Positions 12,381 through 46,160 of a DNA stretch of 46,322 nt are shown piece after piece. The translations under genes and the position numbers were made by a program. The stretch's first letter is position 1, and every line of letters starts with the position of its first letter. Source of the stretch: a virus; the IMG/VR virus record IMGVR_UViG_3300037961_002446, positions 47,857 to 94,178 of that record, one strand, 5' to 3'. The notes under the pieces are model-generated. The model saw only the letters and a program-made list of their open reading frames with translations, made no database searches and was not told the DNA's origin.

Positions 12381-12385
12381 GTCGC

Positions 12386-24638: not shown

Positions 24639-24667
24639 TCTCCTCAACTCTCCCTTTACAATTCCAC

Positions 24668-24675
24668 TATATAAA
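24668..24675 (-). promoter_or_regulatory. Candidate archaeal TATA box upstream of protease/capsid genes
   Basis: Minus-strand TTTATATA lies within the last codons region of the ligase/early protease, 33 bases before the ATG at 24638. In archaea this element sits near -26, which would put transcript start about seven bases before the ATG. No convincing BRE is seen upstream (GTGTTC), and TATA-like strings are common in AT-rich DNA, so this is only a candidate for a promoter serving the head genes. Confidence 0.3.
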
Positions 24676-24682
24676 GAACACA

Positions 24683-27196
24683 CTAATTAGACGGTATTTC
24701 CTTATCCTTGAACCTATCTTCATATATGTTCCATACTCCTTTATCTGATTCTTTATCAGCAGGTTCTTGCTTATATCCCGTCCAAGCCAACCACATCTTT
24801 TGGCCTTTAACAGGAACTACACGGATATGCAGTTTAGTTTCAAACTTATTTCCTTTAAGGAAGTATTCATGATAGCCATGCCTTTGAACACCTAATTCAA
24901 CTTCTCCGCTATCAATCACCTTTTCTCTTTCAAAGTTGTTTGCTACTTGAGCAGGATATTTACCTGCTTTACCAAACAAATCAAACAACTCTTCATCACT
25001 TTCAATATCAACTAACCAATTAATAGTTTCATCACCTAACTTCATGACTATGTTGATTAGGTCGTCTTTTCTAGCGTAAATCTTGAATTCGCCCTTTCTG
25101 TATTCATCAGGAGTTTTGTATTTTTTAATTTCATCTTCCTGATATATCTTATCACTATCAGCGATTAACTTATTATCATCAAACGAAATACCTTCTCTAT
25201 TTTCAGCCCACTCTTTTAGTTTAGAATATTCTGATTCCAATACATCTTCATACAATGATGGTCTTTCTTTGACTAGTAGATTATGTAGGGCTTTTGGAGT
25301 TAAACCATTTTTATCTCTTAATAGATTAAAGATAGCAACAGTTAGTTCAGATTGTTTTGTCTTCATGATTTCTTCGGCCTTAGACTTCCACATATCTAAA
25401 TCCTTGAGAGCATTCTTTGACATTAGGTTATCTTTCTCAAACCCATAGATAGTGAACCCGTCCATGTCTGACTTTATGATAATATTAGTTTCCCCATGAA
25501 TATAATCTGTGATAGATATTCCTTTTTCTAATGCTTTAACATCGTAGTTGAGTGATTTCTTTGTATCTTGTGAAAGCAACTCTAGTGTTATTTCTTTATC
25601 AGGCATATCAACTTCAGGAACTTCTATAACTTTTGCTGAATACAAAGTATATCTATCTCCTGTTCTTTTTACTTCATCAACCTTAACTCTAATAATATCG
25701 CCCACATCAACATTAATTTTAGTATTCAGTGCCTTACCCACTTCCATGAATTTTTTACCATCTACTTCTTTGATGTATTTTCCTTCTTTATCTGTTGCTC
25801 CAATATCAACACCGACAGTATAAGAAAATAAATTACTCTTGGTCTTTTTCTTATCTAAGACAACTACATCTAAATCTACAAACTTCTTCCACTTAACCCA
25901 CTTTGGATTCTTTCTAGTTCCGACATAGTAAGTAGAAGTAATATCTTTGATAACTACACCTTCAGAAGTAGGCATCTCCATTATCTTCTTAGAATATTCT
26001 TCAATGTCTTCTAGATTATCGGCTTCTCTTGTATCTTTCTTAGAGGGGAAATTGATAGCATCAGTAGAATGAGAAGAATAATTGTTAAAGAGAGTAGTGA
26101 TTCTTTTTTCTAGTGGTTCATCTAATAAGTTTTCATCATTATGTCGCATAATATCAAACACATGACACCTTAGTTTAGCATCAGGATATTTTCCTTTAAA
26201 CACATGAGCAATAGTATCTGCTCTATGTAATGGCTCATCACCATCAAACAAAATCAATTCACCGTCAAGAATACAATCTCCATATTTCTTTTCTTTTAGT
26301 TCTTCAACTTGTTCTTTACATTTGTCTGTAATGTCTTTTTCATTATAGGAAAACACTTTGATATTGTTGTCTATCTTATGTAGTTGAATTCTCATTCCAT
26401 CGTATTTTTCTTGAACAATCCAAGTCCCACTAAATCCTTTCAATTCTTTCATATCTTCTATGTCAAAGATACGATACATTGGTTTGTTAGGAATAATAAA
26501 ATCAGATTCAGCCTTTTTCTTGTCGGTCTTTTGGAAGTCGGACTTCTGTTCAATGTCTTTCAAGTCCTCAACATATTCTTCACTATGCCTTGACAAAAGC
26601 AAGAGGTCAAGCATTTCCATAGCGGCCTTGACTTTCTTCTCAACCTTCTTTGAGTCTTTTCCATCTCCATAATGCTCAATAATGTAGAGGGAAATATCGT
26701 CCGATTCTAGGTCAAGACCCTCAAGACCCTCCGTAATATCGTCTTTTTCTATGTCTTTGATTGCTAATAGTTCAGGAGAAAGTGCTTTATTATCGTTTCT
26801 TAAAGCATAATGCACGAATTTCATCATCGTTTCTGGATTAGACATTAATTCCTCTAAGACACTCCCTTTAAATCTTTTAGCGAATGGGTCTTCAACTAAA
26901 TCTGATTTATACCTTAGAGTTTTAATTCCCTCATATAATGACTTAGCCTGTGGGCTTTTAGGGTCTTTTGCTTCTTTAGAATCTACAAGGTCTTCGTCAA
27001 TGAAATTTTTCATTTCTTTACCTGCGGCATCTAATTCACCATAAGATTCTCTAATCATTTCAACTGCATTTCTCCAACGACCCCCGTATTCTTCGGGGTC
27101 TGTTCTAGCAGAAAGATAGGCTACTCTTGTTTTTTCAAATAGCCTCAAAATTTCTTCTGAGGGCATTTTGTCTTTTTCAATATTAGCCAACTTCAA
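24683..27196 (-). CDS. ATP-dependent DNA ligase with long N- and C-terminal extensions
   Basis: Residue numbers count from the GTG at 27205. The adenylation motif EKYDGMR (266-272; nucleophile K267), motif III DGELILFDG (314-322), IIIa CHVFDIM, motif IV EGVVIKD (415-421) and motif V KWVKWKK (435-441) are all present, followed by an OB-like domain to about 530. So a functional ATP-dependent DNA ligase is likely. About 250 residues precede it and 300 follow, including a C-terminal beta domain around RHGYHEYFLKG and MWLAWTGYK that I cannot firmly name. TTG 27196 preferred (AGGTGG 5 bases upstream); GTG 27205 is the alternative. It lies in the head gene cluster, not a replication module, which is odd. 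Confidence 0.85.
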   Translation of the reverse strand: MKLANIEKDKMPSEEILRLFEKTRVAYLSARTDPEEYGGRWRNAVEMIRESYGELDAAGKEMKNFIDEDLVDSKEAKDPKSPQAKSLYEGIKTLRYKSDLVEDPFAKRFKGSVLEELMSNPETMMKFVHYALRNDNKALSPELLAIKDIEKDDITEGLEGLDLESDDISLYIIEHYGDGKDSKKVEKKVKAAMEMLDLLLLSRHSEEYVEDLKDIEQKSDFQKTDKKKAESDFIIPNKPMYRIFDIEDMKELKGFSGTWIVQEKYDGMRIQLHKIDNNIKVFSYNEKDITDKCKEQVEELKEKKYGDCILDGELILFDGDEPLHRADTIAHVFKGKYPDAKLRCHVFDIMRHNDENLLDEPLEKRITTLFNNYSSHSTDAINFPSKKDTREADNLEDIEEYSKKIMEMPTSEGVVIKDITSTYYVGTRKNPKWVKWKKFVDLDVVVLDKKKTKSNLFSYTVGVDIGATDKEGKYIKEVDGKKFMEVGKALNTKINVDVGDIIRVKVDEVKRTGDRYTLYSAKVIEVPEVDMPDKEITLELLSQDTKKSLNYDVKALEKGISITDYIHGETNIIIKSDMDGFTIYGFEKDNLMSKNALKDLDMWKSKAEEIMKTKQSELTVAIFNLLRDKNGLTPKALHNLLVKERPSLYEDVLESEYSKLKEWAENREGISFDDNKLIADSDKIYQEDEIKKYKTPDEYRKGEFKIYARKDDLINIVMKLGDETINWLVDIESDEELFDLFGKAGKYPAQVANNFEREKVIDSGEVELGVQRHGYHEYFLKGNKFETKLHIRVVPVKGQKMWLAWTGYKQEPADKESDKGVWNIYEDRFKDKEIPSN

Positions 27197-27209
27197 CGAT
27201 ACCACCTAC

Positions 27210-30299: not shown

Positions 30300-31937
30300 T
30301 TAACCGACTCTCCTTTCTGTTCTTTTGTCATTATTTTGATTTCCTGCTTCTAGTGGTAATCCTGTTAATCTTTTATCCGGCCCTTGATTCATAGATGGTT
30401 TATTTCTTGTTGTTGCTGGATTTGCTTGTGGTTTGCTCATCATTTGTTCTTGCATTTGACCCATTTGAGATGCGTCTATATTAGTTCCTGCGTATGGGTC
30501 TAATTCAACTTTTTCCCCTTCTTGAGAAGATTCGCCTTCTTTTGGTTCTTGTGGTTCAGGTTTCTTAAAAGTAAATTGGCCATCTTCGTCCATATCAACT
30601 TCAAATCCTAAATTTTTAGTAGAAGCCGCAATATTAACTTCAATCTCTCTCTTTCTTAATACCGCTATTTCATCTTCTTCTTCGCTTGGTGGGAGTTTTA
30701 AGTTCCAATCAGTAATTCCAAATTGCTTAATTAGGAATGGGAATACATAATTATTGTAAACATTTTGTGCCATTTGAACGGCTCTATTGGTGACAAGAAT
30801 TTGCATACCTTCATTGTTTAATCCACCGCTTGTAGTATTATCAGCCATGAAGACTTTACTTACACCATAAAACGCTGAAATCCTATCTCTTAAATCATCT
30901 TTAACAGAAACATAATCCATTTCTTTTAGACTATCCATGAACTTAATCCATTCAACTGCACCCTTACCGTTCTCGGCTTCAATACCCATAACAGGAATAA
31001 AGTGCGGGTCTTGTTCCATCTTTTCTTTAACTGCTCTCCAAAAAGATTTCATGGATTCCATGTTGCGAGTTTGAACAGCCAACAATCCCTTTGGCATACG
31101 ACTCTTTGTGTATGAAGAATTGACATAATTCTCCATAGCAATTAGTGTCATTATGTTATTGTAAAGAGTAATAATTGGAGAAAGACCATACAATCTAGAA
31201 GGATTATATTTACTAAAATGTAAGACTTCTCCCTTGAGGAAGTATTGGTCTTGGCCATTTACTCTATTTACATAATGAACAGGAAATAGATTTGCCCCGC
31301 ATTCTTCGCAGTTATCATGAGGTTCTGTTGATAACATACCTCTATGATTGACACAAGTAAATCCCTTTGTTCCTCTTTGTCCTAACTCATCGGTGTAAAT
31401 AGCCATTGTCACGGGGTCGCCTCTATAGACTTCCTTGATTCTATGCATTCTAATTTTACCATTACCATCAATAAAATATTCTTTGACTAGAACAATATAG
31501 GCATCGTCCATGATATTCAAATCATCTTCAAGTTCTCTAAGAACATCAATGAATAGTTGTTCAGCCTTATTGACATAACCCTCTATAAATTTTTCAGCAT
31601 ATTCTAGTTGCTTTACATCAGGAGTTCTTAAGTCAGTAGAACCACATCTAGAACATTCCGAAACAGGCCTTTGGTGTTCCTTTCCACAATTATTACATCT
31701 TGCTTCGTATGCCTTTTCCCAAACATATCCTCTACGGAAAATTTCCTGTTTAAGTTGAGTAATACAAGTCCTAGCAATAACAGACTGATTAACTAAATGA
31801 TAGATAATCGGAGCAGTCATTAGGTTTGCTTGTTGCCTTTCCTGAATGCCTATGTTGAAGATTTTTCTATCGGCAGGTTTGGGAGTAGAACGCCTAAACA
31901 GGTTTCTTACGCTAAATCGTCTTCTTTCCTCAACCAT
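30300..31937 (-). CDS. Portal protein with two zinc-ribbon insertions
   Basis: 545 residues. Portal pattern: AYIVLVKEYFIDGNGKIRM, EVLHFSKYNPSRLYGLSPI, helix AMENYVNSSYTKSRMP, KDDLRDRISAFYGV, then a disordered Pro/Gln/Met C-terminus. Two cysteine clusters interrupt the N-terminal half: C81-x2-C84...C95-x2-C98 (CNNCGK, CSRCGS) and C195-x2-H198...C210-x2-C213 (CVNHRG, CEECGA), both zinc-ribbon-like. ATG follows GGGGTG. The portal forms the dodecamer through which DNA enters the head. Zinc ribbons in it are unusual; they may bind DNA, terminase or scaffold (inference). Family assignment is firm. Confidence 0.85.
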   Translation of the reverse strand: MVEERRRFSVRNLFRRSTPKPADRKIFNIGIQERQQANLMTAPIIYHLVNQSVIARTCITQLKQEIFRRGYVWEKAYEARCNNCGKEHQRPVSECSRCGSTDLRTPDVKQLEYAEKFIEGYVNKAEQLFIDVLRELEDDLNIMDDAYIVLVKEYFIDGNGKIRMHRIKEVYRGDPVTMAIYTDELGQRGTKGFTCVNHRGMLSTEPHDNCEECGANLFPVHYVNRVNGQDQYFLKGEVLHFSKYNPSRLYGLSPIITLYNNIMTLIAMENYVNSSYTKSRMPKGLLAVQTRNMESMKSFWRAVKEKMEQDPHFIPVMGIEAENGKGAVEWIKFMDSLKEMDYVSVKDDLRDRISAFYGVSKVFMADNTTSGGLNNEGMQILVTNRAVQMAQNVYNNYVFPFLIKQFGITDWNLKLPPSEEEDEIAVLRKREIEVNIAASTKNLGFEVDMDEDGQFTFKKPEPQEPKEGESSQEGEKVELDPYAGTNIDASQMGQMQEQMMSKPQANPATTRNKPSMNQGPDKRLTGLPLEAGNQNNDKRTERRVG

Positions 31938-34705: not shown

Positions 34706-36127
34706 TTAGAAATTTAAACCGATAGCGTTTCTTGTTTGCGGTTTATCATCACCAAACAACCCTAAATCATCTAGCAATATGAAATTGTCGTTGGATTGGT
34801 AAGTAGCCGCATTCGCCAAAGCCAAACTCATTACCATGTCATCGTGTGCGCCTACTCCTTCAAATTTACCCCGTTCAGTAATAGCAAACATAGACATTTC
34901 TTCTATTAAGGCAGAAGTCGTCCTTCTACTTTCCTCATTACCGTATGGGAAATTCATCTTATTATTTTCTAGAGTCATCTGTAGATTCAAAATAATTTCT
35001 TGCTTTTTTCTTCTAGTGGTGTTGAAGTCATGAACATTCAAGTCAGCCACTTGTCTTAATTCTTGAGTAAATGATTTAGCGAAAGTATTTGTTTCAAACA
35101 AGATAACTTCAGGCCTAAACATTTGACCAATGAGTTTTACCTTCTGTATGTTTTCTCTAAACTCTACATTCTTTGCTCGGTCAATATAGACAATAGATTT
35201 GTTTTCATTCTCGTCCATCTCTAATACAGTAATTACATTGTAGTCGCCATCTGTAGATATAGCAGGGTCTACGCCTACAAAGTATTTGTAGCCTTCACGC
35301 TTCAACGGCTTCAAAACTAAATCTTTATTCTTAGCACCTTCTAAATGCTCAGGGTTAAACAAAGAAGTTCCTGTAGAAATAGGCACACACATATATTCTC
35401 TAGTAAATTTAAGAGAACCTATTTCAGCCTTTCTCGCCATCAATGAATCATAATCCCAACGACTTGGCCATAACGGTTCATTAAGAGCATTTAGGCAAGG
35501 ATAGGTTCTAAGAGTATATGCTGCATTTTCAGACAACTGAGCATAAATATCTGTATAACTAAATGGTGTCCCAATAACTCTTAGTGAAGCAGAATGATGT
35601 AGTGTAGGAATCATATCACCGTAAAACCAATCAGTGACTTTCTGAATTCCTGACATACTAAATTCTTTCAAAGGGTCGTCAATAATAATCTCTTGAGGGT
35701 GAAGTCCACGAATCTGTGAACCAACAGAACGCTCTAAGATTTGATTGCCATTTGTTAGAGTAATGTTTCCAATAGCCCAACCTCTTGCAGGTTTGTATTT
35801 CTTTAGCATTGGGTGATTGAACATTTTGTCTATGTCCCTCATGTGAACCATAGTCTGTTTTTGGTTAGAAGAAATGTATAGCATTTGATATGGAGGAGGT
35901 TGAAAAATCAAATTCCAAACAACCCAACTATGCATGAATACAGATTTACCATGACCTCTTGAACAAATAATTACACTTCTTTGTGTAGTGTTCATTAGTT
36001 CTAGCCATTCTTCTTGGTGTTTAGCAAACTCCCAACCTAGCACTTGCTGAAAAAAATACGGAAAGGAATTTTTGGATAATTCCATATCCATTTGATGTTC
36101 AAAATTAAGTTGCTCTAAATCAGACAT
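34706..36127 (-). CDS. Terminase large subunit
   Basis: 473 residues. ATPase half: Walker A SRGHGKS (56-62), Walker B IIIDDP (147-152), and a coupling segment around VIGTPFS. Nuclease half: VGVDPAIS (D287), LFETNTF (E345), GAHDDMVMSLALAN (D429/D430). All catalytic acids are present, so it is likely an active genome-packaging motor and nuclease. Its ATG shares the TAATG with the previous gene. It is followed by NUDIX-endonuclease, lyase and portal genes. Confidence 0.95.
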   Translation of the reverse strand: MSDLEQLNFEHQMDMELSKNSFPYFFQQVLGWEFAKHQEEWLELMNTTQRSVIICSRGHGKSVFMHSWVVWNLIFQPPPYQMLYISSNQKQTMVHMRDIDKMFNHPMLKKYKPARGWAIGNITLTNGNQILERSVGSQIRGLHPQEIIIDDPLKEFSMSGIQKVTDWFYGDMIPTLHHSASLRVIGTPFSYTDIYAQLSENAAYTLRTYPCLNALNEPLWPSRWDYDSLMARKAEIGSLKFTREYMCVPISTGTSLFNPEHLEGAKNKDLVLKPLKREGYKYFVGVDPAISTDGDYNVITVLEMDENENKSIVYIDRAKNVEFRENIQKVKLIGQMFRPEVILFETNTFAKSFTQELRQVADLNVHDFNTTRRKKQEIILNLQMTLENNKMNFPYGNEESRRTTSALIEEMSMFAITERGKFEGVGAHDDMVMSLALANAATYQSNDNFILLDDLGLFGDDKPQTRNAIGLNF

Positions 36128-36675
36128 TACCTTCCACCCATATTAAACGGGTTAAACGGTTCATCTCTTCTCGGCCTAGCAGTAGGTCGTTGTTGTGAAG
36201 AATGATTAGGTTTAACCCCATTGAAATAAATATCTATCTTTTCGGCATTAGAAGGATAGTTTCTTCCACTAGATTTATCATCAGGACTAACATGAGTTAG
36301 TAGAATTACTTTGCTATATGGCTCATTTTGTTTTGTTCTCAATTCACTTACTTTAAGTTGCACTCTAGGTAGTTTTCCTTCTGTCATTACCTTTATCATT
36401 AGGAAACTTCTATCTCTAGTGCTTGAATTTAGATAACACCAATAGTCGCCAACTGAAAGTTGTTTTAACCTAGCCTCAATATCAGGACTGATAGTATTAT
36501 GGCTAAGTTTTCCCTTGTATCTTTCATTCATGCTATACAGATAATGAGGCATAAAAATAATCGCTACATCGTCATCTTCTTTTGTATTAGCGTAACCTTC
36601 GCCTCTTTTGTCTTTAGGTCTAGGGTCTTCGCCATAATCTTGACTAGGCTTTAATTTAAGAATATCCCACCACAT
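36127..36675 (-). CDS. Tagged protein MWWDILKLKPS (182 aa)
   Basis: Starts MWWDILKLKPS, a variant of the recurring N-terminal W-x-x-I-L-K peptide. The remaining protein has beta strands (EDDDVAIIFMPHYLYSM, RSFLMIKVMTEGKLPRVQL, KVILLTHVSP) and a Pro/Arg tail. No known family. TAAGATG links it to the acetyltransferase-like gene upstream, TAATG to the terminase downstream. It may be a virion cargo protein (inference from the tag). Confidence 0.55.
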   Translation of the reverse strand: MWWDILKLKPSQDYGEDPRPKDKRGEGYANTKEDDDVAIIFMPHYLYSMNERYKGKLSHNTISPDIEARLKQLSVGDYWCYLNSSTRDRSFLMIKVMTEGKLPRVQLKVSELRTKQNEPYSKVILLTHVSPDDKSSGRNYPSNAEKIDIYFNGVKPNHSSQQRPTARPRRDEPFNPFNMGGR

Positions 36676-36676
36676 C

Positions 36677-36964
36677 TTAATTGCCGTCCTCTATGTCATA
36701 TCTAGCATTACTGCTTCTAAGCATTTCTTCTAGAATACCTCTATATGCTTCCCCTCTTCTTCTTGGCCTAGAGAAACCTATCTTAAGATAATACAAAACC
36801 ATTCTTTTGTTAATGTCTGCTAGATTAGTATATCTAACATATTTTTTTCTATCTACAGGAATCTCATCATCAAGGATTTTTTCTTTTAGCGTTAGCCATT
36901 GTTCATCTGTAATTTGCCTACCTTGATTTGGTTTTGCTTTCACTACAGACCACCACTCAGGCAT
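36677..36964 (-). CDS. Possible nested tagged protein starting MPEWWSVVK (95 aa)
   Basis: Internal ATG at 36964 in the acetyltransferase-like gene, reading MPEWWSVVKAKPNQG and continuing to the shared stop. It would carry the tag at its own N-terminus, as other proteins in the cluster do. Upstream GATGATG is a poor ribosome site. Proposed, not proven. Confidence 0.25.
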   Translation of the reverse strand: MPEWWSVVKAKPNQGRQITDEQWLTLKEKILDDEIPVDRKKYVRYTNLADINKRMVLYYLKIGFSRPRRRGEAYRGILEEMLRSSNARYDIEDGN

Positions 36965-37492
36965 TACATCATCAGCATATACGCACTTAGCAAATTCATC
37001 TTTACCTCTAATACTGCGTATAGCCCAATTGCCGTTAGGGTATGCGCTATTCCATTCGCTTATAACTGATTCGGGGAGTAAAGAACTAAACTGCTCAAAC
37101 CCTTCATCTTGAGAAAATTTCCAACCGTTTCTTCTAGCATTAGCAATCCATCTAGCATTATCTCCATCTCTATGACCAAAAGCAGCAACTAGTGGTTTTG
37201 ATTGGTTTAGTTGTGGTTCTCTTGCATCTTGTAATGCTCTATTATTTCCACCAATTTCTCTTCCTTCGGCAGTAGCATACATTCCACCTACAACGGTATG
37301 TGCAGGGTGTTCTTTCCAACCAACAGTTGAAATGGCTCTATCATCATCATTGACTCTAATAATCCACTTATCTAATTCATAGATACCGGATTCTAAATCA
37401 GCCCTGCGAGTATATGGGTCTTCAGGATTATCCTCAGAAAACCTCTTTTTCATATCTTCATATGAAAATACCGCAGGGAGAACTTTTACCAT
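36677..37492 (-). CDS. Acetyltransferase-like (GNAT-type) protein with internal W-W-x-V-V-K peptide
   Basis: 271 residues. Residues about 35-125 resemble a GNAT fold (LDKWIIRVNDDD, HTVVGGMYATAEGREIGGN, KPLVAAFGHRDGDNARWIANA, including a possible acetyl-CoA loop); this is a weak match. At 176-190, VMPEWWSVVKAKPNQ repeats the tag theme in the interior, with a Met at 177. The C-terminal 80 residues are a separate helical domain. ATG TAATG-linked to the upstream gene. The protein could be a fusion of two tagged or untagged pieces. GNAT function is a guess. Confidence 0.5.
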   Translation of the reverse strand: MVKVLPAVFSYEDMKKRFSEDNPEDPYTRRADLESGIYELDKWIIRVNDDDRAISTVGWKEHPAHTVVGGMYATAEGREIGGNNRALQDAREPQLNQSKPLVAAFGHRDGDNARWIANARRNGWKFSQDEGFEQFSSLLPESVISEWNSAYPNGNWAIRSIRGKDEFAKCVYADDVMPEWWSVVKAKPNQGRQITDEQWLTLKEKILDDEIPVDRKKYVRYTNLADINKRMVLYYLKIGFSRPRRRGEAYRGILEEMLRSSNARYDIEDGN

Positions 37493-37743
37493 TACTTTTC
37501 ACCTAGAAAGTATTTTAAATTTCTATCATAGAAAGCATCAAACTCATCAGGAGTTTTAACAGAATCAAGTTGTTCAAGTTTAACTGTCGCTAAATCTTCT
37601 GACTTTCCTCTTTCAGTAGTCTTTGCTCTACCTACCATGCTCTCTAATTTACTTCTAATTTCGGGTATTTTTTGTTTCATTTCTGCTGGCCTACTAAAAT
37701 CTAATAGACTAGTTTGTGCTTTTAGTATATCTTTCCAATTCAT
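37492..37743 (-). CDS. Tagged protein MNWKDILKAQT (83 aa)
   Basis: Starts MNWKDILKAQT, the tag, followed by helices (AEMKQKIPEIRSKLESMVG; FDAFYDRNLKYF). No other domain. Its stop overlaps the acetyltransferase-like start (TAATG). A small all-helical tagged protein; likely virion-associated by analogy with its neighbours (inference). Confidence 0.5.
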   Translation of the reverse strand: MNWKDILKAQTSLLDFSRPAEMKQKIPEIRSKLESMVGRAKTTERGKSEDLATVKLEQLDSVKTPDEFDAFYDRNLKYFLGEK

Positions 37744-37747
37744 TTTA

Positions 37748-38035
37748 TCACCATAGTTTCTTACACGCTAAACATTTTGGGGTTGTAATTCTACCTTTAC
37801 ATTGGTCGCAATTATGTCTTGATTTGAAGTTAGCCCTGCGCTTTTTGTTGGTATGAGTTCCACCGCCTCTATTCTTTCCCTTGCCTTTGTAATTACCATA
37901 GCCTTTAGCACCTGCATGAATCTTTTTCCCTTCATGAGTAAGCATCATAATTTTCTTACCTGCTCTATCGGAAGGATATACACGACCTACTCGCATATCT
38001 TTCTTATCTTTCTTTAGCACTTCTTCCCAAGACAT
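37748..38035 (-). CDS. Tagged zinc-ribbon protein MSWEEVLKKDK (95 aa)
   Basis: Start placed at ATG 38035 (MSWEEVLK), because an ATG 15 codons earlier overlaps the previous gene and would hide the tag. After the tag comes a basic beta-type segment (KIMMLTHEGKKIHAGAKGYG) resembling a small domain I recall from giant-virus and cyanophage proteins, then a C-terminal zinc ribbon C76-x2-C79...C88-x2-C91. No enzyme motif. Fits a DNA-binding virion protein (inference). Confidence 0.55.
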   Translation of the reverse strand: MSWEEVLKKDKKDMRVGRVYPSDRAGKKIMMLTHEGKKIHAGAKGYGNYKGKGKNRGGGTHTNKKRRANFKSRHNCDQCKGRITTPKCLACKKLW

Positions 38036-38039
38036 AATA

Positions 38040-38609
38040 TCAGCCCCTCCATCTAGTTCCTGATGGTGTATGTGTTCCACCTGTGTTATAGGTTATATTA
38101 GAACTAGTCATTCTTGGTTTTGTTCTGAACTGCCTCATTTCTTGTTGTTGCTTATTGTATTCTTCTTTTGCTTTTTGTTGAGCGTATTTTATTCCTTGTT
38201 GTATAGTAACCCTACCGACAAAAACATCACCTTCATTCTTAAGATATTCAGTTAGAAATCTACCTGCTGATTTTAGAGCCGATTTATTTTGATTGTAAGT
38301 ATTCAAATCATTTTGGTCTGAAAATTTAATTCCATCAACAGTGAACTGCGGTGGTTTGGGTTTATTGCTAAACAAGCCTCTTATCTTCAAAACCTCTTCC
38401 CATTTCTTAACAGGTTCATGAGTATAATAATCTCCATGCTTATGCTCAAACAGTTTACCATCTTCTTTCATATCAGAAATAGTTTCCTTGAGTTTCTTTT
38501 TATCAGCAATATCTTTTAGATTCTTCATACCCAATGCTCCGCCTTCGGCTTCAACCTCATCAAGTATTTCTTCTTCAACATCTTCTTTTAGAATGCTTTT
38601 CCAACTCAT
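38040..38609 (-). CDS. Tagged protein with winged-helix-like segment and second internal tag (189 aa)
   Basis: Begins MSWKSILKEDVEEE; then residues about 20-68 look like a winged helix (KNLKDIADKKKLKETISDM, DGKLFEHKHGDYYT), and a second W-x-x-V-L-K peptide occurs at KKWEEVLKIRG. C-terminal half is helical, ending in a low-complexity Thr/Ser/Gly/Arg tail. ATG-linked (ATGA) to the upstream Cys-rich gene. Winged-helix call is tentative. Two tag copies in one protein is notable. Confidence 0.5.
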   Translation of the reverse strand: MSWKSILKEDVEEEILDEVEAEGGALGMKNLKDIADKKKLKETISDMKEDGKLFEHKHGDYYTHEPVKKWEEVLKIRGLFSNKPKPPQFTVDGIKFSDQNDLNTYNQNKSALKSAGRFLTEYLKNEGDVFVGRVTIQQGIKYAQQKAKEEYNKQQQEMRQFRTKPRMTSSNITYNTGGTHTPSGTRWRG

Positions 38610-38983
38610 GCTCCTTTCCTCCTTTTGTAAGTTTTACAGGCCGCACAGGTTGGCCTACATCTTTGCTTAGTCCCTTTAGAAGCATCTTGTCTTCCACATG
38701 GTTTTGTTCCTTTTTTATCATCTTCACAAGATTGACAAGAAACCCAACCTTTCTGTCCTCCACCGCCTCTTCTTGAAAACCAACCGTGAAGACCCTCTTT
38801 CTTTTCTCTAGCAAAATTATCTCCACCCTTCTTTACAGAATTACCCCAATTATCTGCACCAACTTTACGGCATCTAACTAAAGCACCACTAGCATAAGCG
38901 GAAGGCCACTTTTTGTAGCGGCTACGGACTTTGTGATAACAAGCGTCCTTTTTCTTCTTTAGTTCTTCAAACCACAAGTCCAT
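38606..38983 (-). CDS. Cys/Lys-rich protein of a marine-virus family (125 aa)
   Basis: Starts MDLWFEELKKKKDACYHK, a looser tag (W-x-x-x-L-K). The rest (RSRYKKWPSAYASGALVRC, RKVGADNWGNSVKK, GLHGWFSRRGG, C-rich GWVSCQSCEDD) is a pattern I recall from cyanophage and giant-virus small virion proteins of unknown function. Eight or more Cys could bind metal or form disulphides. ATGA-linked to the next gene. Likely virion associated; biochemical role unknown. Confidence 0.5.
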   Translation of the reverse strand: MDLWFEELKKKKDACYHKVRSRYKKWPSAYASGALVRCRKVGADNWGNSVKKGGDNFAREKKEGLHGWFSRRGGGGQKGWVSCQSCEDDKKGTKPCGRQDASKGTKQRCRPTCAACKTYKRRKGA

Positions 38984-38987
38984 AGTA

Positions 38988-41465
38988 TCACCTAAAGTTA
39001 GCCTTAATCAAATAAACTTGCTCAGTATTAATCCCGTATTCCTTTGAAATGTTGTTATGTGAATCATCAGACTTGACGATATTTTCTATTTCTAGATGGC
39101 TCAAATCTATTCCTTCTTCTATGTGCATTTTAGTAATAACACTATCAATAGAATCATATGTAAGATTCATGAAACCATATTCCACTTTCTTACCTAGTTG
39201 TTTTCTAATAGCATCGTGAGCCTTAAGCAACTTGTTTAGAACAATCGGCAAATCATCTTCTACCTTAGTAAACAGTTTCTTCAATCTCTTATATTGTGCT
39301 TTCATAGCAGGTTCTTTGGTTAGTAGGCTTTGGTGTCTATCAATGTAGTGTGGTAGTGCAAAGATAGGGAACGCTTCTCTATTACTGTATGACCGTTCAA
39401 AAGATTCTGCTCTTTCTTCAACAGACTTACCATTAATAGGCTCATCAGCATAGGTATTATCTCCTATCTCTTCCATAAAGTGCATCAGCAAAGCACCCAT
39501 ATAGTCGCTATTTCTTTCTTCGGTATCTTCTCCAAAGATTTCAGTTAAAGCATCAGCCGCATTATCAGCCGCTTGGATTAATTCATCAGTAATTTCAAAG
39601 TTAGGCTTATCTAGGAATTCTAAGAAATCAGCAATTCTTCTAATGTCTGAAACTTCAATAGCACTTGCACCAATTCCTGAAAGTAATTCGTATGCTCCTC
39701 CCATTACAGTTTCTAATCCTGTATCTCTTGCTAGAATTTCCAAAACCTTTGCTCCTCTTCCTGAAATAAAACTTGGAGTTTCTATTGGTAGTCTACCTGC
39801 ATACATTGGAGTAATGTAATAAGCAGTAGCGGATTCTAGAAATTTAGCAATTATTCCCTTAAACTCTTCAAGACTTTCATCAAGTTCTCCTCTAGTAAGT
39901 GGGTTAATTGGTCTTGACCTTGCTCCTCCGAGTCTTCCCATTCTTTCTCTATAAGAACCGCCACTTGTTCTAGGGGCTTCTCTAGACATTCCTGCATCAG
40001 CACCGAATACGCTTCCTAAAGTTCCTCCTCTACCTGTTGCTCTAACTCCTGAAGCAAAACCAAATTTCTTGCTTGTTAATCCCGCATGAATTTCATCTAA
40101 CATTTCAGACAACATAGATTCAATATCCATAGTAATCCCATCACGCTCAACTGCTGATGGTAGTTTTTCAGGATATTTAGCGAAGGTTCTAAACTTGGTA
40201 TCTTTCATTACTGTAATAGGCAAAAAGAATTCTCCTTTTTCACTAACAAAAGAATCTTCTATGTCATCTATCATTTGTTCAATATCTGTTTGGAAATCAA
40301 TAGTGGTATCATCTTGTCCTAATACTTCTAGAAGTTCAGTAATTATTCTATGTCCTTCGTCATTAAACGCCAAAAGTTTCTTTCCTCTCATTACCTCAAA
40401 TGCTAGGAGAGGGTCAATAAAGAGAGTTTCTTCTTCAACGGTTTTGTCTGCATATACATCATCTATAGAATCATCAGCCAACTGTTCTTCCAAAAACCCA
40501 TCATCTCTATGAGTAGTTTCCAAACCATTCCATTGACTCATGTATTGTTCTTCCCAAGCATCTTGCCCCGAAGAATCTACATCGTCTTCGTCTTCCCCTT
40601 GAATTTCTATTTTCTTCTTAGATAGACCCTTCATGATTAGTAGGTTTTCTAGAATAGCCACCATTCTTTCAGCAGGTTTGATTTGATTTAGGCCAACTGT
40701 AGGAAATCTAGCAATATATTCTAGGTTCTCATCTCCATACTTTTCATTTAGTTTGTTAAAGTAATTCTTGAATTGTTCATTCTCGCTTTTGTTAGCGGCA
40801 ACAAATAGAGCATCTAGGTCTTCTTTGAATTGAGTATATTTTTCAGAAATCTCTTCCCAATAGTCGTAAATGTCATCTCTTTGTCCTAGTTTAGAAAGAG
40901 GGGTTGCTCCCAAATATTTTCTGATATTGAACCTAACTGACTTCATTTTAGCCTTAGATTCTCCTTGACTAATCTTTCTTTTGAGAACCTGTTGGATTCT
41001 TTCTATGTTGTGTTGTAGATTGTCAAGTTGTTGTTGAGTAAATTTCTCCTTGAATTCAGGCATCTGCAAAAAAGTATCAACTGTTTGTTGGAATGCAGGT
41101 TCAAGGATTTTAGTTTGGCTAATATCTCCAATAGTAAAATTTTCTAGTTTTTCTTCAAATAGAGTTTCTTTAGTTAGATTAACTCCTTCTTCATCTTTAA
41201 TCTTAAGACGCATAATTGGGCCATAAGCAAATTCTCTAACATCTGTAGCGGCTAAACTTTTGATTTCTCTTCTTAGTTGAGTTCTAAATTTCTTAGCCTC
41301 TTTGTCTAGTTCTGACCCTTCTAGACCTTCTTGGGCTTTTTTGTTTCTAAAGTCCTCAACTAAATCTTTCATTCCTTGAATTCTCTCAGGGCTTCTATCT
41401 TCTGTATTCTGAACAAGGGCTTGTATTTCCCTCATCAAATCTTTATTTTCTTGAATATCGGCCAT
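38988..41465 (-). CDS. Large helical protein with C-terminal HTH-like segment (825 aa)
   Basis: ATG 41465 (MADIQEN) is chosen with GAGTGAT upstream rather than GTG 41474. Mostly Glu/Lys/Asp-rich helices with low-complexity acidic stretches (EDEDDVDSS) and a Gly/Arg-rich part near residues 500-545. The last 40 residues, HLEIENIVKSDDSHNNIS then KEYGINTEQVYLIKANF, look like a helix-turn-helix. No known family. Sits in the tagged cluster; may be a packaged or genome-organising protein (inference). Confidence 0.45.
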   Translation of the reverse strand: MADIQENKDLMREIQALVQNTEDRSPERIQGMKDLVEDFRNKKAQEGLEGSELDKEAKKFRTQLRREIKSLAATDVREFAYGPIMRLKIKDEEGVNLTKETLFEEKLENFTIGDISQTKILEPAFQQTVDTFLQMPEFKEKFTQQQLDNLQHNIERIQQVLKRKISQGESKAKMKSVRFNIRKYLGATPLSKLGQRDDIYDYWEEISEKYTQFKEDLDALFVAANKSENEQFKNYFNKLNEKYGDENLEYIARFPTVGLNQIKPAERMVAILENLLIMKGLSKKKIEIQGEDEDDVDSSGQDAWEEQYMSQWNGLETTHRDDGFLEEQLADDSIDDVYADKTVEEETLFIDPLLAFEVMRGKKLLAFNDEGHRIITELLEVLGQDDTTIDFQTDIEQMIDDIEDSFVSEKGEFFLPITVMKDTKFRTFAKYPEKLPSAVERDGITMDIESMLSEMLDEIHAGLTSKKFGFASGVRATGRGGTLGSVFGADAGMSREAPRTSGGSYRERMGRLGGARSRPINPLTRGELDESLEEFKGIIAKFLESATAYYITPMYAGRLPIETPSFISGRGAKVLEILARDTGLETVMGGAYELLSGIGASAIEVSDIRRIADFLEFLDKPNFEITDELIQAADNAADALTEIFGEDTEERNSDYMGALLMHFMEEIGDNTYADEPINGKSVEERAESFERSYSNREAFPIFALPHYIDRHQSLLTKEPAMKAQYKRLKKLFTKVEDDLPIVLNKLLKAHDAIRKQLGKKVEYGFMNLTYDSIDSVITKMHIEEGIDLSHLEIENIVKSDDSHNNISKEYGINTEQVYLIKANFR

Positions 41466-41470
41466 AATTA

Positions 41471-43429
41471 TCACTCAATCAGTTGTTGTTTTTTGAATTC
41501 TTTAATTGCTAAAGGAACATTACTTTGTTTATACGGGAAAAAGTCTTGGTAGTCTTTTGTGAAGTCTTCTAGTCTTAGTTTAAATCCGCTAATTAGTTCT
41601 TCTTTTGCTTCTTTTAGGAATTGTGGCATTTTATCATTTAATTCATTAGCGAGTTCCAACTGCTTACTAGTGTTATCCCTGTTCTTATCTATAGATATGA
41701 ATGTATCGGCAATTAAACCGTCTTGTCCTTCGTCCATAATACCCTGTTCGCCTAGCCTAGATAATATAATCAAACTGTTCTTTGGTGATAATTTATCCAT
41801 TACTGTTGCACTAGAAGCGTCTGATTCTGTAAGTTTAGTTAGGCCTCCTTCTTCATTATTGGAATAATCAACAATAAACTGAGCAAAATCGCTAGTATCT
41901 AACATGGTTTGTCTTAATTTACCCAAACCTATCTTAGTCCCTTTTTCTTTTTCCTTGTTTTCAATATCTTCCATTAATTCTTTAGGAGAAGTTTCATCAT
42001 CATCTAAAAATATCTTAGCATAAGCAATATCTGTTCTTTCTCCTTGAGAAATAGGCTTGTCAAACTCATCGTAGTATTCTATTTCTAAATCACCAAAAAT
42101 AAACTCGGCATCATCTGTATCGTCATAAATTTCTTGGAAAGCCTGTGCTTCTTTCACAGTAAATTTACCTTGATACTTGTCTTGGAATACATTTCTTTGA
42201 TATGCAGAAGTTTGGCGATTAAATTCTTGTCTTAGAGTAGTATCTTTATCTAAAAAATTCTTAATTTTCTTTCTATCTTGTTTTTGATTATTTGTGAGTT
42301 TAATATCTCTAAAAGGAATAAGATTTGTTCCTAAACTGCTCTTGTCAGGATTATTTGGACTGCCTAGACCTTCAATAATAGAATCAATGAACATTCTTTC
42401 AGCAAGACTCTCGCTAACAAACGCATTCATTCTAACTGCGGAGAAGAAATCATTAAACCATGAATCTCCTGTAAAACTAGCAGTAATTAACAACTTACCA
42501 TAGGGATTTAGTGCCAAAGAGTTCTTTCTACCCGATGCTCTTTCCAAAAATATAGCATCAGATGGGAACTCAAAGCCATTTTCCATAACTTTAGGCTCAA
42601 ATTTAGAAATATCTCCACCAATGGCCTCAAGTGCTAGAATATATCTCAACACATTGTTAGAAGTGAAGGGTTCTCTTACTGTAAAGGACACATTTGAGGC
42701 TAACATGGTGTCAGTTTCAGAAACAGAAGAGAGTGTTCGCTCTTGTCCCTCCAAATCGGGCTTGTATTGTCTAATTTTCTCAGAATAGAGAGATTTTGCC
42801 TCATCATTTTGCCTAATCGCATCTCTAACCGCCTTCGCACTATCCAAATTGGTCTGAATTGTGTCATTTTTGACTTCTCCTCCGATTGCATTCGCAAATT
42901 CCGAGATTGAAACCGTAAAATTTTCTTTTTCTTCGGCATTTGACGGTATGGATTTAAACTCAATGACGAAACCATCAGCAAAAGAGTCAAAAACTCGCAT
43001 TTTAGCCCTTAATTTTTTATTTCTTTGAAGACTTCTTTGTGATTTTCCTTTAGCGTCTTTGATTTTTTGAGAAAGTTCAGCAAATTTGGCTTCATTACCC
43101 TCATTTTTCGCTGAAATTGCTTCATCAAGTAGCGTTTCAAGTGCTTTTGTTTCGCTAACTTGTTCATCTTTTACTGAGTCAAGAACTTTTTTCAGATTTG
43201 CCTCTATTTTTTCCTTAGAAATATTAGGTAGAGGTAATTTTTTCATCATAGATTCAACTGTTATGTTGTTTCCTTTTATGTTTCTAAGAAGACCTTTGAA
43301 TCCTGCGCTCAATGTTTCTGAATTTTTGATTTCTTCTATCAATGAATCTGTTTTAGAATCATCAGCAAGGGCAATTAGCAAAGTAATATCTCTTTGCGGT
43401 TGCGCTTTTAGAAGAATTTGCCAACTCAT
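41471..43429 (-). CDS. Large tagged protein MSWQILLKAQP (652 aa)
   Basis: The tag MSWQILLKAQP opens a 652-residue Lys/Glu/Asp/Ser-rich protein of helices with a beta segment around 255-330 (SNVSFTVREPFTSNNVLRYI). Coiled-coil-like stretches at 95-145 and near the end. No enzyme motif recognised. ATG after GGAGAAATT. It is the largest tagged protein; virion interior or scaffold-like role inferred from tag only. Confidence 0.5.
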   Translation of the reverse strand: MSWQILLKAQPQRDITLLIALADDSKTDSLIEEIKNSETLSAGFKGLLRNIKGNNITVESMMKKLPLPNISKEKIEANLKKVLDSVKDEQVSETKALETLLDEAISAKNEGNEAKFAELSQKIKDAKGKSQRSLQRNKKLRAKMRVFDSFADGFVIEFKSIPSNAEEKENFTVSISEFANAIGGEVKNDTIQTNLDSAKAVRDAIRQNDEAKSLYSEKIRQYKPDLEGQERTLSSVSETDTMLASNVSFTVREPFTSNNVLRYILALEAIGGDISKFEPKVMENGFEFPSDAIFLERASGRKNSLALNPYGKLLITASFTGDSWFNDFFSAVRMNAFVSESLAERMFIDSIIEGLGSPNNPDKSSLGTNLIPFRDIKLTNNQKQDRKKIKNFLDKDTTLRQEFNRQTSAYQRNVFQDKYQGKFTVKEAQAFQEIYDDTDDAEFIFGDLEIEYYDEFDKPISQGERTDIAYAKIFLDDDETSPKELMEDIENKEKEKGTKIGLGKLRQTMLDTSDFAQFIVDYSNNEEGGLTKLTESDASSATVMDKLSPKNSLIILSRLGEQGIMDEGQDGLIADTFISIDKNRDNTSKQLELANELNDKMPQFLKEAKEELISGFKLRLEDFTKDYQDFFPYKQSNVPLAIKEFKKQQLIE

Positions 43430-44088
43430 TGTAATTTCTCCTGCATCTTCTGTTTAATATCTAACCAAATTTCAGGATTGTTCTGTGCTAAAACTTCCTG
43501 AACAATTTGCATCTGTGCAACAATAACAGTATCTTGTCGCTTGTGAACCAATTTACCCTTAAACTCCATGAGATATTTTAGGGACTCTCTAATTTCTCTA
43601 GCAAGTTTGGTTAGAGCGTCAATCATCTTAGGGTCTAAATCATTTCCTAAGTCATTGAATACTTGCTCCAATCTCAAATCTAACTTCTGAACATTGTTAG
43701 ACAAAACATCTACTTCATTCAATTCTTTTGTGGCTATCATCATAGCCGCACTTTCTTGCACTATTGGAGTAAGATGGTTTTTTACATGGCGTTGAATTTG
43801 TGCCTTTGTTGTGTCTAAAGCGGAAGCCAAATCAGAACTTGTAATTTCTCCATTCTGTAGTGCCAACTCGTAGTGCTTTCTCATTGGGTCTACACATAAT
43901 TTACATTGGGGATTTGAATTTGATTTGTATTCTCCCATGTGGTTTCTTTGGTGTTGTGCCGCAGTTCCACTTCTCCAATTATATTCAGCGTCTAATTCAT
44001 CACAGGTAATTTCACCTGCTTCCAACATTCTTTCAAGTTCTTCTCTATTTTCATGTTGGCAAAAACCACAACGCTTTCTAGTAACCAT
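43426..44088 (-). CDS. Candidate terminase small subunit with duplicated CCHH/HTH module
   Basis: Start at ATG 44088 (MVTRKRCGFC) with GGAGA upstream, rather than ATG 44118 inside the previous gene. Two tandem modules with the same spacing: C7-x2-C10-x35-H46-x3-H50 and C62-x2-C65-x35-H101-x3-H105. Each ends in a recognition-helix-like AQ(H/I)Q-R. This 'C..C...H...H with HTH' layout is like small terminase or other packaging initiators. The C-terminal half is a helical oligomerisation region (LAREIRESLKYLMEFKGKL). It lies ahead of the large terminase by about 7 kb. DNA binding at the packaging site is inferred. Confidence 0.55.
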   Translation of the reverse strand: MVTRKRCGFCQHENREELERMLEAGEITCDELDAEYNWRSGTAAQHQRNHMGEYKSNSNPQCKLCVDPMRKHYELALQNGEITSSDLASALDTTKAQIQRHVKNHLTPIVQESAAMMIATKELNEVDVLSNNVQKLDLRLEQVFNDLGNDLDPKMIDALTKLAREIRESLKYLMEFKGKLVHKRQDTVIVAQMQIVQEVLAQNNPEIWLDIKQKMQEKLQ

Positions 44089-44090
44089 GA

Positions 44091-45227
44091 TTATCTTCTC
44101 CATAATCTTGCTTGCCACATTTTAGAAATTACTTTTTGGTCAGGTTTCATTCTGAATCCTTTTCCTTTTGGTTCATCATAGGTTTTAGGGAACGCTTCCT
44201 TTGCAGTTTTTCTATAATCAAAGCCACGCTTTCTAGCGTTTTGCCACGCTCTATATCCGTTTGGTGCTTTGTTAGTCCCTGCTCTCTTTAATGCTCTATC
44301 AACCAATTCAATAATTGGAGTTGCAGTAGAAGTCAATTTGAAATCAATAATTTTACCCGCAGGAGTTTTCTTATCTCCTTCGGCATTAAATCTAGCAAGA
44401 CTCGCTACAAGTTCTTGGTCTTTGTTTTTTAATTTGAAAGACCTTGCTTGTAAGTCTTGTCTTACTTTCTTTACTAAGAGTTTACCACCATTACTCCAAA
44501 AAGCAGGATTCTTGATAACACTATCAAAATAATCTCCAATAGCACTAATCTCATCAAAATCTCTAGGTGGCGCACCGCCTCTTACTTCTTCTATTTCTAA
44601 ATCACTAATCTCTAAATCATCTCTAACCATTTCTTTAGCCTCTTGCATAATAGCAAGTAGTCCTTTTGGTTTAGCCCATCTATTAGAAGATTCAGCGAAT
44701 AGTGCTTCATGTGGTGGATTCTTTCCTGCAAACCATTCAGCAGGTGCGGCTTTCTTTCCTGTTTTCTTTTCATAAGCAGGACTTCTGTAGTGGCCTCTTA
44801 ATTCCACCTTTCTTCTTTTCTTACCGCCTCTTGTTTCAACAAATTCTGTAAATAGAATATCTTTAGGGTCTAAGGAAGTGTCTTTTAATTCAGCCAAAAC
44901 TTCTGCCATAGCATTGATAATCATGGCTTCTCCTTGAGTAAATACGCTACCGTCTACAATACCTTCAATGACTTGAAGTGCTTCTCTTGCACCTTGACCT
45001 TCTTTATCCGAATTAGCCGAACCGGGTCTAATGTTTCCAAATACATGAGTAAACAAAAAGTCATACAATGTAGGGACATTCTCTACATACAAATCATCAC
45101 CGCTAATACTTTGGCAGTTTTCTTTCCAAGTTCGGAAGTCCTTTACAAACTTGAAAGACTCAATGTTTTGATTGAAGGTATTGCCTCCCATCTTAACCTG
45201 TTTCTTTTTCTTAGTTTCCTTTACCAT
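44091..45227 (-). CDS. Unidentified basic protein (378 aa)
   Basis: Not recognised. Basic N-terminus (KETKKKKQVKMGG), a helical centre and a basic C-terminus (APNGYRAWQNARKRGFDYRK, and LWRR at the end). Its ATG overlaps the end of the small tagged gene by 17 bases; its end meets the small terminase candidate. DNA-binding or portal-proximal role possible; no clear motif. Confidence 0.4.
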   Translation of the reverse strand: MVKETKKKKQVKMGGNTFNQNIESFKFVKDFRTWKENCQSISGDDLYVENVPTLYDFLFTHVFGNIRPGSANSDKEGQGAREALQVIEGIVDGSVFTQGEAMIINAMAEVLAELKDTSLDPKDILFTEFVETRGGKKRRKVELRGHYRSPAYEKKTGKKAAPAEWFAGKNPPHEALFAESSNRWAKPKGLLAIMQEAKEMVRDDLEISDLEIEEVRGGAPPRDFDEISAIGDYFDSVIKNPAFWSNGGKLLVKKVRQDLQARSFKLKNKDQELVASLARFNAEGDKKTPAGKIIDFKLTSTATPIIELVDRALKRAGTNKAPNGYRAWQNARKRGFDYRKTAKEAFPKTYDEPKGKGFRMKPDQKVISKMWQARLWRR

Positions 45228-45348
45228 CTTCTTCTTCCTCCTTTTTCTTCTTTGAATATCTTATGTTGAATAAAGAAGGTGAAGATGTTGTGGTAACAGA
45301 ACCCGCCATCTTTTCTTCTTCTTTACGGACAATATCTCGCCAACTCAT
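45211..45348 (-). CDS. Tiny tagged protein MSWRDIVRKEE (45 aa)
   Basis: A short gene that begins MSWRDIVRKEEEK, a tag variant, then Ser/Thr-rich and a KKKKEEEED tail. Its ATG overlaps the upstream Cys-rich gene's stop (ATGA at 45345-45348), typical of real genes here. Its end overlaps the next gene by 17 bases. Its existence depends on the tag pattern and coupling; role unknown. Confidence 0.45.
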   Translation of the reverse strand: MSWRDIVRKEEEKMAGSVTTTSSPSLFNIRYSKKKKEEEEDGKGN

Positions 45349-45746
45349 TTTTGACCCCTCATTTGATTTTCTTTAGATGTTTTATCATCATCAATCGGGC
45401 CACCTTTAGCCCAAGTATAACAAGTTCTTGCTGAATGACATTTGAAATCGTGCATCCAACAATAACCTAAACGACCATCTTCATCGGTAGTTAATGGCAT
45501 ACAATCGTCCATTCTAGGTGAAATATCAAAAGCAATACAATTACTACAGTTAGATTCTTTTGCTACATCAGCAGTAGTGTTCCATCTCTTAGCATACTTT
45601 TCCCAATATTCTTCATCTTCTAGATTAAGTGGCCCATATCTGATATTAGGGTTTTTAACTGCGGCATCTCTATTTTTAGTATTGAGCATCAAATCTTGTG
45701 TTGCTCTAGGACAAGTAAGTTCCTTAAGAATAATTTGCCAACTCAT
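45345..45746 (-). CDS. Tagged Cys-rich protein of a marine-virus family (133 aa)
   Basis: The tag MSWQIILKEL is followed by a Cys-rich domain with C12, C67, C70, C82, C96, C103 and C109. TQDLMLNTKNRDAAV, IRYGPLNLEDEEYWEKYAKRW, CSNCIAFDISP and GYCWMHDFKCHSARTCYTW match a family I recall from cyanophages and other marine viruses (possible iron-sulfur or metal-binding, function unknown). Here it carries the N-terminal tag in front, so the tag looks like an added module. ATGA-linked to both neighbours. Confidence 0.6.
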   Translation of the reverse strand: MSWQIILKELTCPRATQDLMLNTKNRDAAVKNPNIRYGPLNLEDEEYWEKYAKRWNTTADVAKESNCSNCIAFDISPRMDDCMPLTTDEDGRLGYCWMHDFKCHSARTCYTWAKGGPIDDDKTSKENQMRGQK

Positions 45747-45850
45747 TTCTTTTCACCCGTGACAAAACATTTCTTTGACTTTGCCTCGCTATCATCAACT
45801 TCTTTTGATTTTGCGTCAAACCAACTATCTAAGTAATTACACCTTGTCAT
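45743..45850 (-). CDS. Tiny protein, possible degenerate tag (35 aa)
   Basis: Fits between two tagged genes: ATG 45850 follows GGTGAATAAT, and its stop overlaps the next ATG (ATGA). The sequence MTRCNYLDSWFDAKSKEVDD has a Trp in a similar place to the tag but not the I-L-K part. Short size makes it uncertain; tight coupling supports a real gene. Confidence 0.35.
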   Translation of the reverse strand: MTRCNYLDSWFDAKSKEVDDSEAKSKKCFVTGEKK

Positions 45851-45851
45851 A

Positions 45852-46160
45852 TTATTCACCTAAGCCATGTTGGTCTACGGCTTGAAGTAACTCTAATATC
45901 TTAATATCCATTTTAGTTAATCCTGATTTGCCTCTTAGTTTATACAATTCACCTTGTAAGTATTCGTGCATATCCGATGCGCTTACTCCTCCCAAACTGT
46001 TTCTAACTATGTTCTTTTTCATTCTCTTTTCATCATCAAATTGAGGAATAAGCGGTTGTTCTATAGAAGGTAGTCCTTGTTTTACTCTTTCTCTCGCTCT
46101 CTTAACATGGTCAGGAAGTTCCTCTTCCTCTTCATTCTTTAGAATTTTTTCCCAAGACAT
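45852..46160 (-). CDS. Tagged protein MSWEKILKNEE (102 aa)
   Basis: Begins MSWEKILKNEEEEELPDH, the clearest tag copy. The body is acidic then basic helices (RARERVKQGLPSIEQ; SASDMHEYLQGELYKL; TKMDIKILELLQAVDQ). No domain recognised. Its start lies three bases from the previous stop. Cargo role inferred. Confidence 0.5.
   Translation of the reverse strand: MSWEKILKNEEEEELPDHVKRARERVKQGLPSIEQPLIPQFDDEKRMKKNIVRNSLGGVSASDMHEYLQGELYKLRGKSGLTKMDIKILELLQAVDQHGLGE

Follow-up and report, generated by a model that had tools for sequence, protein, structure and literature searches.

A short N-terminal tag on unrelated late proteins of a magrovirus, a candidate address for the prohead

Why should a tailed virus begin so many of its late proteins, otherwise unlike one another, with the same few residues? 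The question is raised by a stretch of 46,322 nucleotides, called the window here, which comprises positions 47857-94178 of the 94,178-base IMG/VR record IMGVR_UViG_3300037961_002446 and covers about half the 94-kb genome of a magrovirus, an archaeal tailed virus. Eight of its open reading frames (ORFs), all on the minus strand (Table 1), open with variants of one peptide, M-x-W-x-x-I-L-K, hereafter the tag. An earlier note, drawn from the letters alone, had listed these eight and proposed that the peptide loads their products into the capsid or sorts them to the virion; each ORF is indeed present and begins with the peptide listed. We consider it highly probable that the tag is a portable docking peptide and infer, with a probability of roughly 0.65, that the proteins bearing it are destined for the prohead or virion.

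A chance origin is ruled out by the counts in the window, in its relatives and in a second clade. The motif occurs at 15/11,630 internal Met codons, which sets the chance baseline; among the 50 genes of the window about 0.065 tags are expected by chance and eight are seen (P about 7e-15). In 80 near relatives found by their large terminase subunit (TerL, 81-96% identity), taken together with the window's own record, 566 of the 2,038 ORFs around TerL are tagged. The consensus recurs unchanged in a second clade, whose TerL is about 58-60% identical, on 172/975 ORFs, 171 of them on the TerL strand, against a baseline of 2/6,744 internal Met. The enrichment at N-termini in related genomes, on which the earlier note had beforehand let its proposal depend, is found in both TerL clades. 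Nine genomes hold 144 tagged genes on the late strand and 1, a chance-like ORF, on the other, the replication strand (Fisher 2e-42). In 11 near-complete genomes the pattern M-(0-2)-W-x-x-[IV]-[LI]-K finds 184 tagged late-strand genes, and genomes carry 8 to 24 tagged proteins each, these counts being lower bounds that miss near-variants such as MSWQDILQ, MSWFEQLK and MTDLWFEELK. The loose ninth member of the earlier list, MDLWFEELK, proves to be a degenerate copy, with orthologues that read MSEWFEILKKKK (L006), MSKWFEILKKKK (L042) and MTDLWFEELKKKK (L036) and have the full motif. The record has three further tagged genes beyond the window, spanning its positions 983-1390, 1395-1556 and 1601-1864; if the record is circular, they are contiguous with those of the window.

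In HCTV-1, the best match to the major capsid protein (MCP) among isolates, no tag was seen in the region read; three marine viruses picked up through the DNA pattern, with no match to TerL, have 1-2 pattern matches each, a chance level, and the two examined have none or one tagged ORF, as chance predicts. When remoter viruses were sought by terminase alignment, most of those returned were the near relatives already found. A scan of host genomes gave one magrovirus-like 5.3-kb fragment (L364, NZMJ01000061.1) in a Maricaulis metagenome-assembled genome, probably misbinned contamination. The contig IMGVR_UViG_3300021958_000021 (184,733 bases) has two different TerL genes, L043 and L083, and is probably two magrovirus genomes joined in assembly.

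The consensus reads M, usually one residue (S, N or T), W, two polar or variable residues, I (80%) or V, L (76%) or I, and K (98%), percentages that come from pattern-chosen sequences; a fairer measure is a scan relaxed one position at a time, which recovers hardly anything but W, I/V/L, L/I/V and K. Conservation ends at K, with 3.2 bits of information there and 0.4 bits one position on, and an alignment of 113 tagged proteins (MAFFT) holds a single conserved block, MxWxxILK. Selection on the tag acts at the peptide level, because the codons for I, L and K are free and follow background usage; Ser alone shows a preference, being AGT in 84% of cases in the tag against a background of 23%. In 17/17 families tested, conservation is higher at the four core positions than in the body; in the family of the 652-residue protein, where mean column identity is 25%, few positions are near-invariant, W3, K8 and P11 among them. 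An AlphaFold model of that protein is confident (mean pLDDT 80.9) and falls below 50 only at residues 1-8 and 229-234, with a short helix drawn at residues 3-7, so that in the model the tag is separate from its own body, undocked, although it is the family's most conserved part. A part conserved most and yet unpacked resembles a docking peptide for another molecule. A fold search with the model gave no solved match and two unnamed viral models; a model of the 133-residue Cys-rich protein was of low confidence (pLDDT 42.6) and was set aside.

Several variants of the tag were encountered. Some copies are internal, behind an N-terminal module; in particular, several different bodies (L012 12163, L042 6987, L054 14603 and others) have their internal copy behind a module some 40 residues long (MPITKKKDGYYWGS...AAYASGYVKK). 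One tagged family (L006 6627-6974, L015 13054-13404, L065 6847-7194 and relatives) has ATT at the expected start Met in 9/10 distinct sequences, with GGTGG upstream, making it a candidate for an AUU start codon or for a GTG start a few codons earlier. Cluster 26 (L019 16442-16807 and relatives), conserved downstream of TerL, begins MTWDYYGEGEDFILKEEK, with extra residues between W and ILK, and three of its relatives have a regular tag in that place. For the ORF at 37748-38035, the mechanical call begins at a GTG at 38080 and the tagged ATG stands at 38035.

Once the tag is removed, the proteins fall into about 217 clusters, 134 of them single, with only the tag in common; the bodies are unrelated and interchangeable. 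Those identified include a PAP2-type phosphatase (E 1e-12), a GNAT acetyltransferase, pentapeptide repeats and a weak metallopeptidase match, besides DUF5754-like and DUF5872-like modules whose matches lie below Pfam's curated cut-offs. The tagged proteins are soluble and hydrophilic: a transmembrane-like segment occurs in 1/180 tagged proteins versus 62/573 untagged late proteins, and the median GRAVY (grand average of hydropathy) is -0.80 for tagged and -0.41 for untagged late proteins; the tagged ones are also more basic. The C-terminal part of the 45-residue MSWRDIVR protein is like a motif found only on other tagged proteins. This second element, AGxVSFGGHGxNPELFNIxYG with a basic tail, is on eight proteins, every one tagged, its carriers including window 45211-45348, L048 214-624, L052 1033-1428, L062 2132-2503 and L105 13836-13976. 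In genome G021 (record 83817-89600), tandem tagged genes, one of which encodes an 806-residue protein, have about 20 further residues in common (NIQISSQRTSSKDYV) before they diverge.

Across the 11 near-complete genomes, 150/368 genes from the 5' end to TerL are tagged, 20/59 from TerL to portal, 5/90 from portal to MCP and 9/143 (7/106 + 2/37) from MCP to a 600-residue protein; in the tail module (tape measure, tail, fibre) there are none among 117, and the difference between the pre-portal genes and the tail has a P of 1e-22. The tag is not a general late-gene leader, because TerL, portal, protease, MCP and tail proteins are all without it in the mapped genomes.

Several of the bodies have homologues in other phages, and these lack the tag. 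The Cys-rich 133-residue body is annotated there as 'high potential iron-sulfur protein', and in Actinomycetia phage DSL-LC01 its homologue adjoins capsid maturation proteases; the DUF5754-like body and the DUF5872-like module also occur in other phages untagged. In genome G016 the protein MSWKDILKA-KRIPRKKGQPANSKKHSDLYTDENPKGTIHGLGF has a body about 80% identical to cyanophage proteins; the homology begins at residue 11, immediately behind the tag, and in cyanophage P-TIM68 the body KRIPRKKGQPANSKKHSDLYTDENPKGTIHGLGF follows MKSFIDFSEN, in the gene pair after the MCP gene. The internal proteins of T4 begin MKTYQEFIAEA (the IPII/IPIII-type start) and MKTFKEFTS. A T4-type start pattern, with 0-6 matches per T4-like genome, is found at all three T4 ip genes and at the P-TIM68 gene with the KRIPRKKGQPANSKKHSDLYTDENPKGTIHGLGF body (P-TIM68 has about three matches in 246 genes, and a chance start at any one gene is about 1%), and also at Bellamy gp122 and S-RIM8 gp99, beside module proteins. 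T4-like cyanophages carry such module-rich proteins next to gp17, adjoining TerL (T4-GC 119, phrog_727), with several small modules in common with tagged magrovirus proteins; there they are joined in one long protein, whereas in magroviruses they are mostly separate and individually tagged. The positional equivalent in S-CREM2, gp137, was detected in purified virions with 4 peptides (PMC10665884 Table 3). Its C-terminal module is homologous to tagged bodies (E 3e-9) and matches 16 tagged magrovirus proteins; the adjoining gp136, which begins MQTFSMFFSEDA, was likewise detected in virions.

Addressing unrelated proteins by a short peptide would not be unprecedented. The cargo-loading peptides of encapsulins usually sit at the C-terminus, unlike the magrovirus tag, which is N-terminal in the counted genes and internal in few; they also differ from it in sequence and belong to host compartments without DNA. 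What invites the comparison is a short peptide that docks unrelated cargo within an HK97-fold shell (PMC8346489). In P1, DarB is brought into the head by an N-terminal signal, which can take a reporter with it; the signal was found for one protein only, no consensus emerged among Dar proteins, 9 residues did not suffice (PMC9024508), and its sequence is unrelated to the tag. A further such system is the capsid-targeting sequence (CTS) of T4, described as the only thing in common among its diverse internal proteins (PMC3012670). Like the CTS of IPI, IPII and IPIII, the tag is a short N-terminal peptide on otherwise unrelated late proteins, with a rapidly diversifying cargo, and in both an aromatic residue is followed by a hydrophobic one at +3 (MKTYQEFI vs MSWKDILK). 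Identity with the CTS by sequence is rejected, as the earlier note had anticipated: the consensus MK[ST][YF]xxF has only 2 chance-level matches in the 11 magrovirus genomes, and the tag uses W, I, L and K, without an (I/L)-x-E-type site after it, in an archaeal virus with an S78-like protease. The use is also far wider, with 8-24 tagged genes per magrovirus genome versus three annotated internal proteins and one further CTS-like start in T4. On the best reading the tag would nonetheless work as the CTS does.

We propose that the first 7-8 residues, M-(0-2 residues)-W-x-x-[IV]-[LI]-K, would form two helical turns that place W, I and L on one face, and that a conserved late viral protein (candidates are the protease or a scaffold, the MCP and the portal) would bind this face during prohead assembly. 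Tagged proteins would thus be gathered into the prohead and accompany the DNA, probably acting at an early stage in the next host cell; injection and early action are plausible by analogy. The protease could remove the tag. The bodies would be exchangeable, cargo genes being acquired, duplicated and discarded beside the terminase and each given the same address. The earlier proposal is upheld in part. That the tag is a sorting or docking signal, and neither coincidence nor paralogy, is strongly supported, since it is portable and N-terminal, stands on about 217 bodies, is selected as a peptide and is undocked; the capsid as destination is the best-supported reading but is circumstantial, drawing on the location in the head module, the absence from the tail module, the P-TIM68 start and the S-CREM2 homologue.

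Other explanations of this pattern are less likely. A portable, N-terminal, conserved and undocked peptide would fit any common docking site, and the tagged genes crowd around the terminase gene, so the tag might bind a packaging motor, a late transcription complex or a replication or assembly focus, its bearers staying in the cell; we think this unlikely given a replication arm without tags beyond one chance-like ORF, the T4-CTS-like start on a homologous body in P-TIM68 and the homologue of another tagged body within a protein detected in cyanophage virions. Repeated duplication of one ancestral gene, of which the N-terminus alone is still recognisable, evidently contributes, as the tandem arrays of G021 (record 84-90 kb, with their NIQISSQRTSSKDYV after the tag) imply; as the whole account it is very unlikely, because the bodies are mostly unlike in length, composition and family, untagged homologues of several occur in other phages, and a core that outconserves its body in every family tested needs selection. 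The genome encodes Cpn60, and a short amphipathic peptide could be a ligand that delivers clients to this GroEL-like chaperonin; however, Cpn60 has no match in six tagged genomes (G016, G021, G027, G028, G030 and G038), in each of which the DNA pattern matches 6 to 20 times, and the likely clients, MCP and tail proteins, are untagged, and we reject this explanation as extremely improbable.

Two explanations in which the tag does not bind a protein are just as hard to credit. With W, I and L on one helical face and a hydrophobic moment of 0.57 for MSWKDILK, the tag might anchor proteins at the host membrane, but it would offer only about two turns and three large hydrophobics, position W+2 is mainly D, E or N, and the composition of the unusually hydrophilic bodies disfavours it. 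A translation enhancer or recombination site that incidentally encodes a peptide would explain the place at the start codon and the bias to AGT; it is rejected for the freedom of the I, L and K codons, frame and amino acids being kept while the DNA varies, and in addition the MCP gene has no such element and some internal copies keep the peptide. Several points weigh against loading into the prohead itself. Magroviruses are uncultured. The charge of the tagged bodies is diverse, so that they are not uniformly DNA-binding; no conserved cleavage site or motif follows the tag, although a protease gene is present; and the internal copies imply that a free N-terminus is not strictly required, unless they are decaying fusions. 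The cyanophage MKSF/MKTF starts are assigned as CTS-like by resemblance only, and the four virion peptides of gp137 may lie outside the module it has in common with tagged bodies.

The virus belongs to the order Magrovirales, abundant viruses of Poseidoniales archaea in the ocean, because its gene content and layout match the descriptions given by the International Committee on Taxonomy of Viruses (PMC10768690, PMC12999244): about 90-110 kb, opposed replication and morphogenesis genes, PolB, TFB, RFC, often GroEL, and an HK97 MCP; membership was judged against these profiles. TFB, Cpn60, an RFC-like AAA protein, a PCNA-like protein (called from a reading of the sequence, without a Pfam match) and a split family-B polymerase lie on the strand opposite the structural genes, TerL, portal, S78-like protease and SU10/HK97 MCP, which are on the minus strand; among isolates, haloarchaeal viruses are the best MCP matches. 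An 840-residue protein with an ATP-dependent DNA ligase domain (window 24683-27205) directly precedes the prohead protease gene, as in 11/11 mapped genomes, and a 618-residue protein downstream of TerL (window 32840-34696) combines an HNH/LAGLIDADG-like stretch (FIDSDGYI) with a NUDIX domain, its homologues adjoining TerL in every mapped genome.

Table 1. Tagged genes and untagged landmarks in the window
Feature	Position	Tag position	Strand	Remarks
Tagged ORF, 102 aa, MSWEKILK	45852..46160	46137-46160	(-)	acidic family, cluster 14
Tagged ORF, 133 aa, MSWQIILK	45345..45746	45723-45746	(-)	Cys-rich body
Tagged ORF, 45 aa, MSWRDIVR	45211..45348	45325-45348	(-)	
Tagged core protein, 652 aa, MSWQILLK	41471..43429	43406-43429	(-)	confident model, tag undocked in it
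Degenerate tag MDLWFEELK	38606..38983	38957-38983	(-)	DUF5872-like Cys/basic protein
Tagged ORF, 189 aa, MSWKSILK	38040..38609	38586-38609	(-)	
Internal second copy, WEEVLK	38385..38402		(-)	residues 70-75 of the 189-aa MSWKSILK protein
Tagged ORF, 95 aa, MSWEEVLK	37748..38035	38012-38035	(-)	DUF5754-like body
Tagged ORF, 83 aa, MNWKDILK	37492..37743	37720-37743	(-)	
Tagged ORF, 182 aa, MWWDILK	36127..36675	36655-36675	(-)	directly upstream of TerL
Large terminase subunit (TerL)	34706..36127		(-)	untagged landmark; phrog_38, 6e-55
Portal protein	30300..31937		(-)	untagged landmark; phrog_18178, 3e-65
Prohead protease (Peptidase_S78-like)	23448..24683		(-)	untagged landmark
Major capsid protein, HK97/SU10 type	22016..23437		(-)	untagged landmark
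Tape measure protein	10593..12389		(-)	untagged landmark; tail module tag-free in 11 genomes

The peptide strings that we tried were not found in the literature searched, the key magrovirus papers lying outside that search. The tag also helps to correct gene starts. A bolder proposition, which we regard as evenly poised, is that one address of 8 residues is a universal loading code: any gene would need only to gain the tag for its product to enter the virion, and each virus would deliver 8-24 exchangeable proteins. These would be drawn from more than 200 families, some of them shared with cyanophages that address a homologous cargo by a T4-type signal. If this is true, we know of no earlier cargo-addressing code in an archaeal virus, and its extent would be unusual among tailed viruses. 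A single short peptide would then mark out about one late gene in four for a common fate, and predicted virion cargo could be listed simply from metagenomes.

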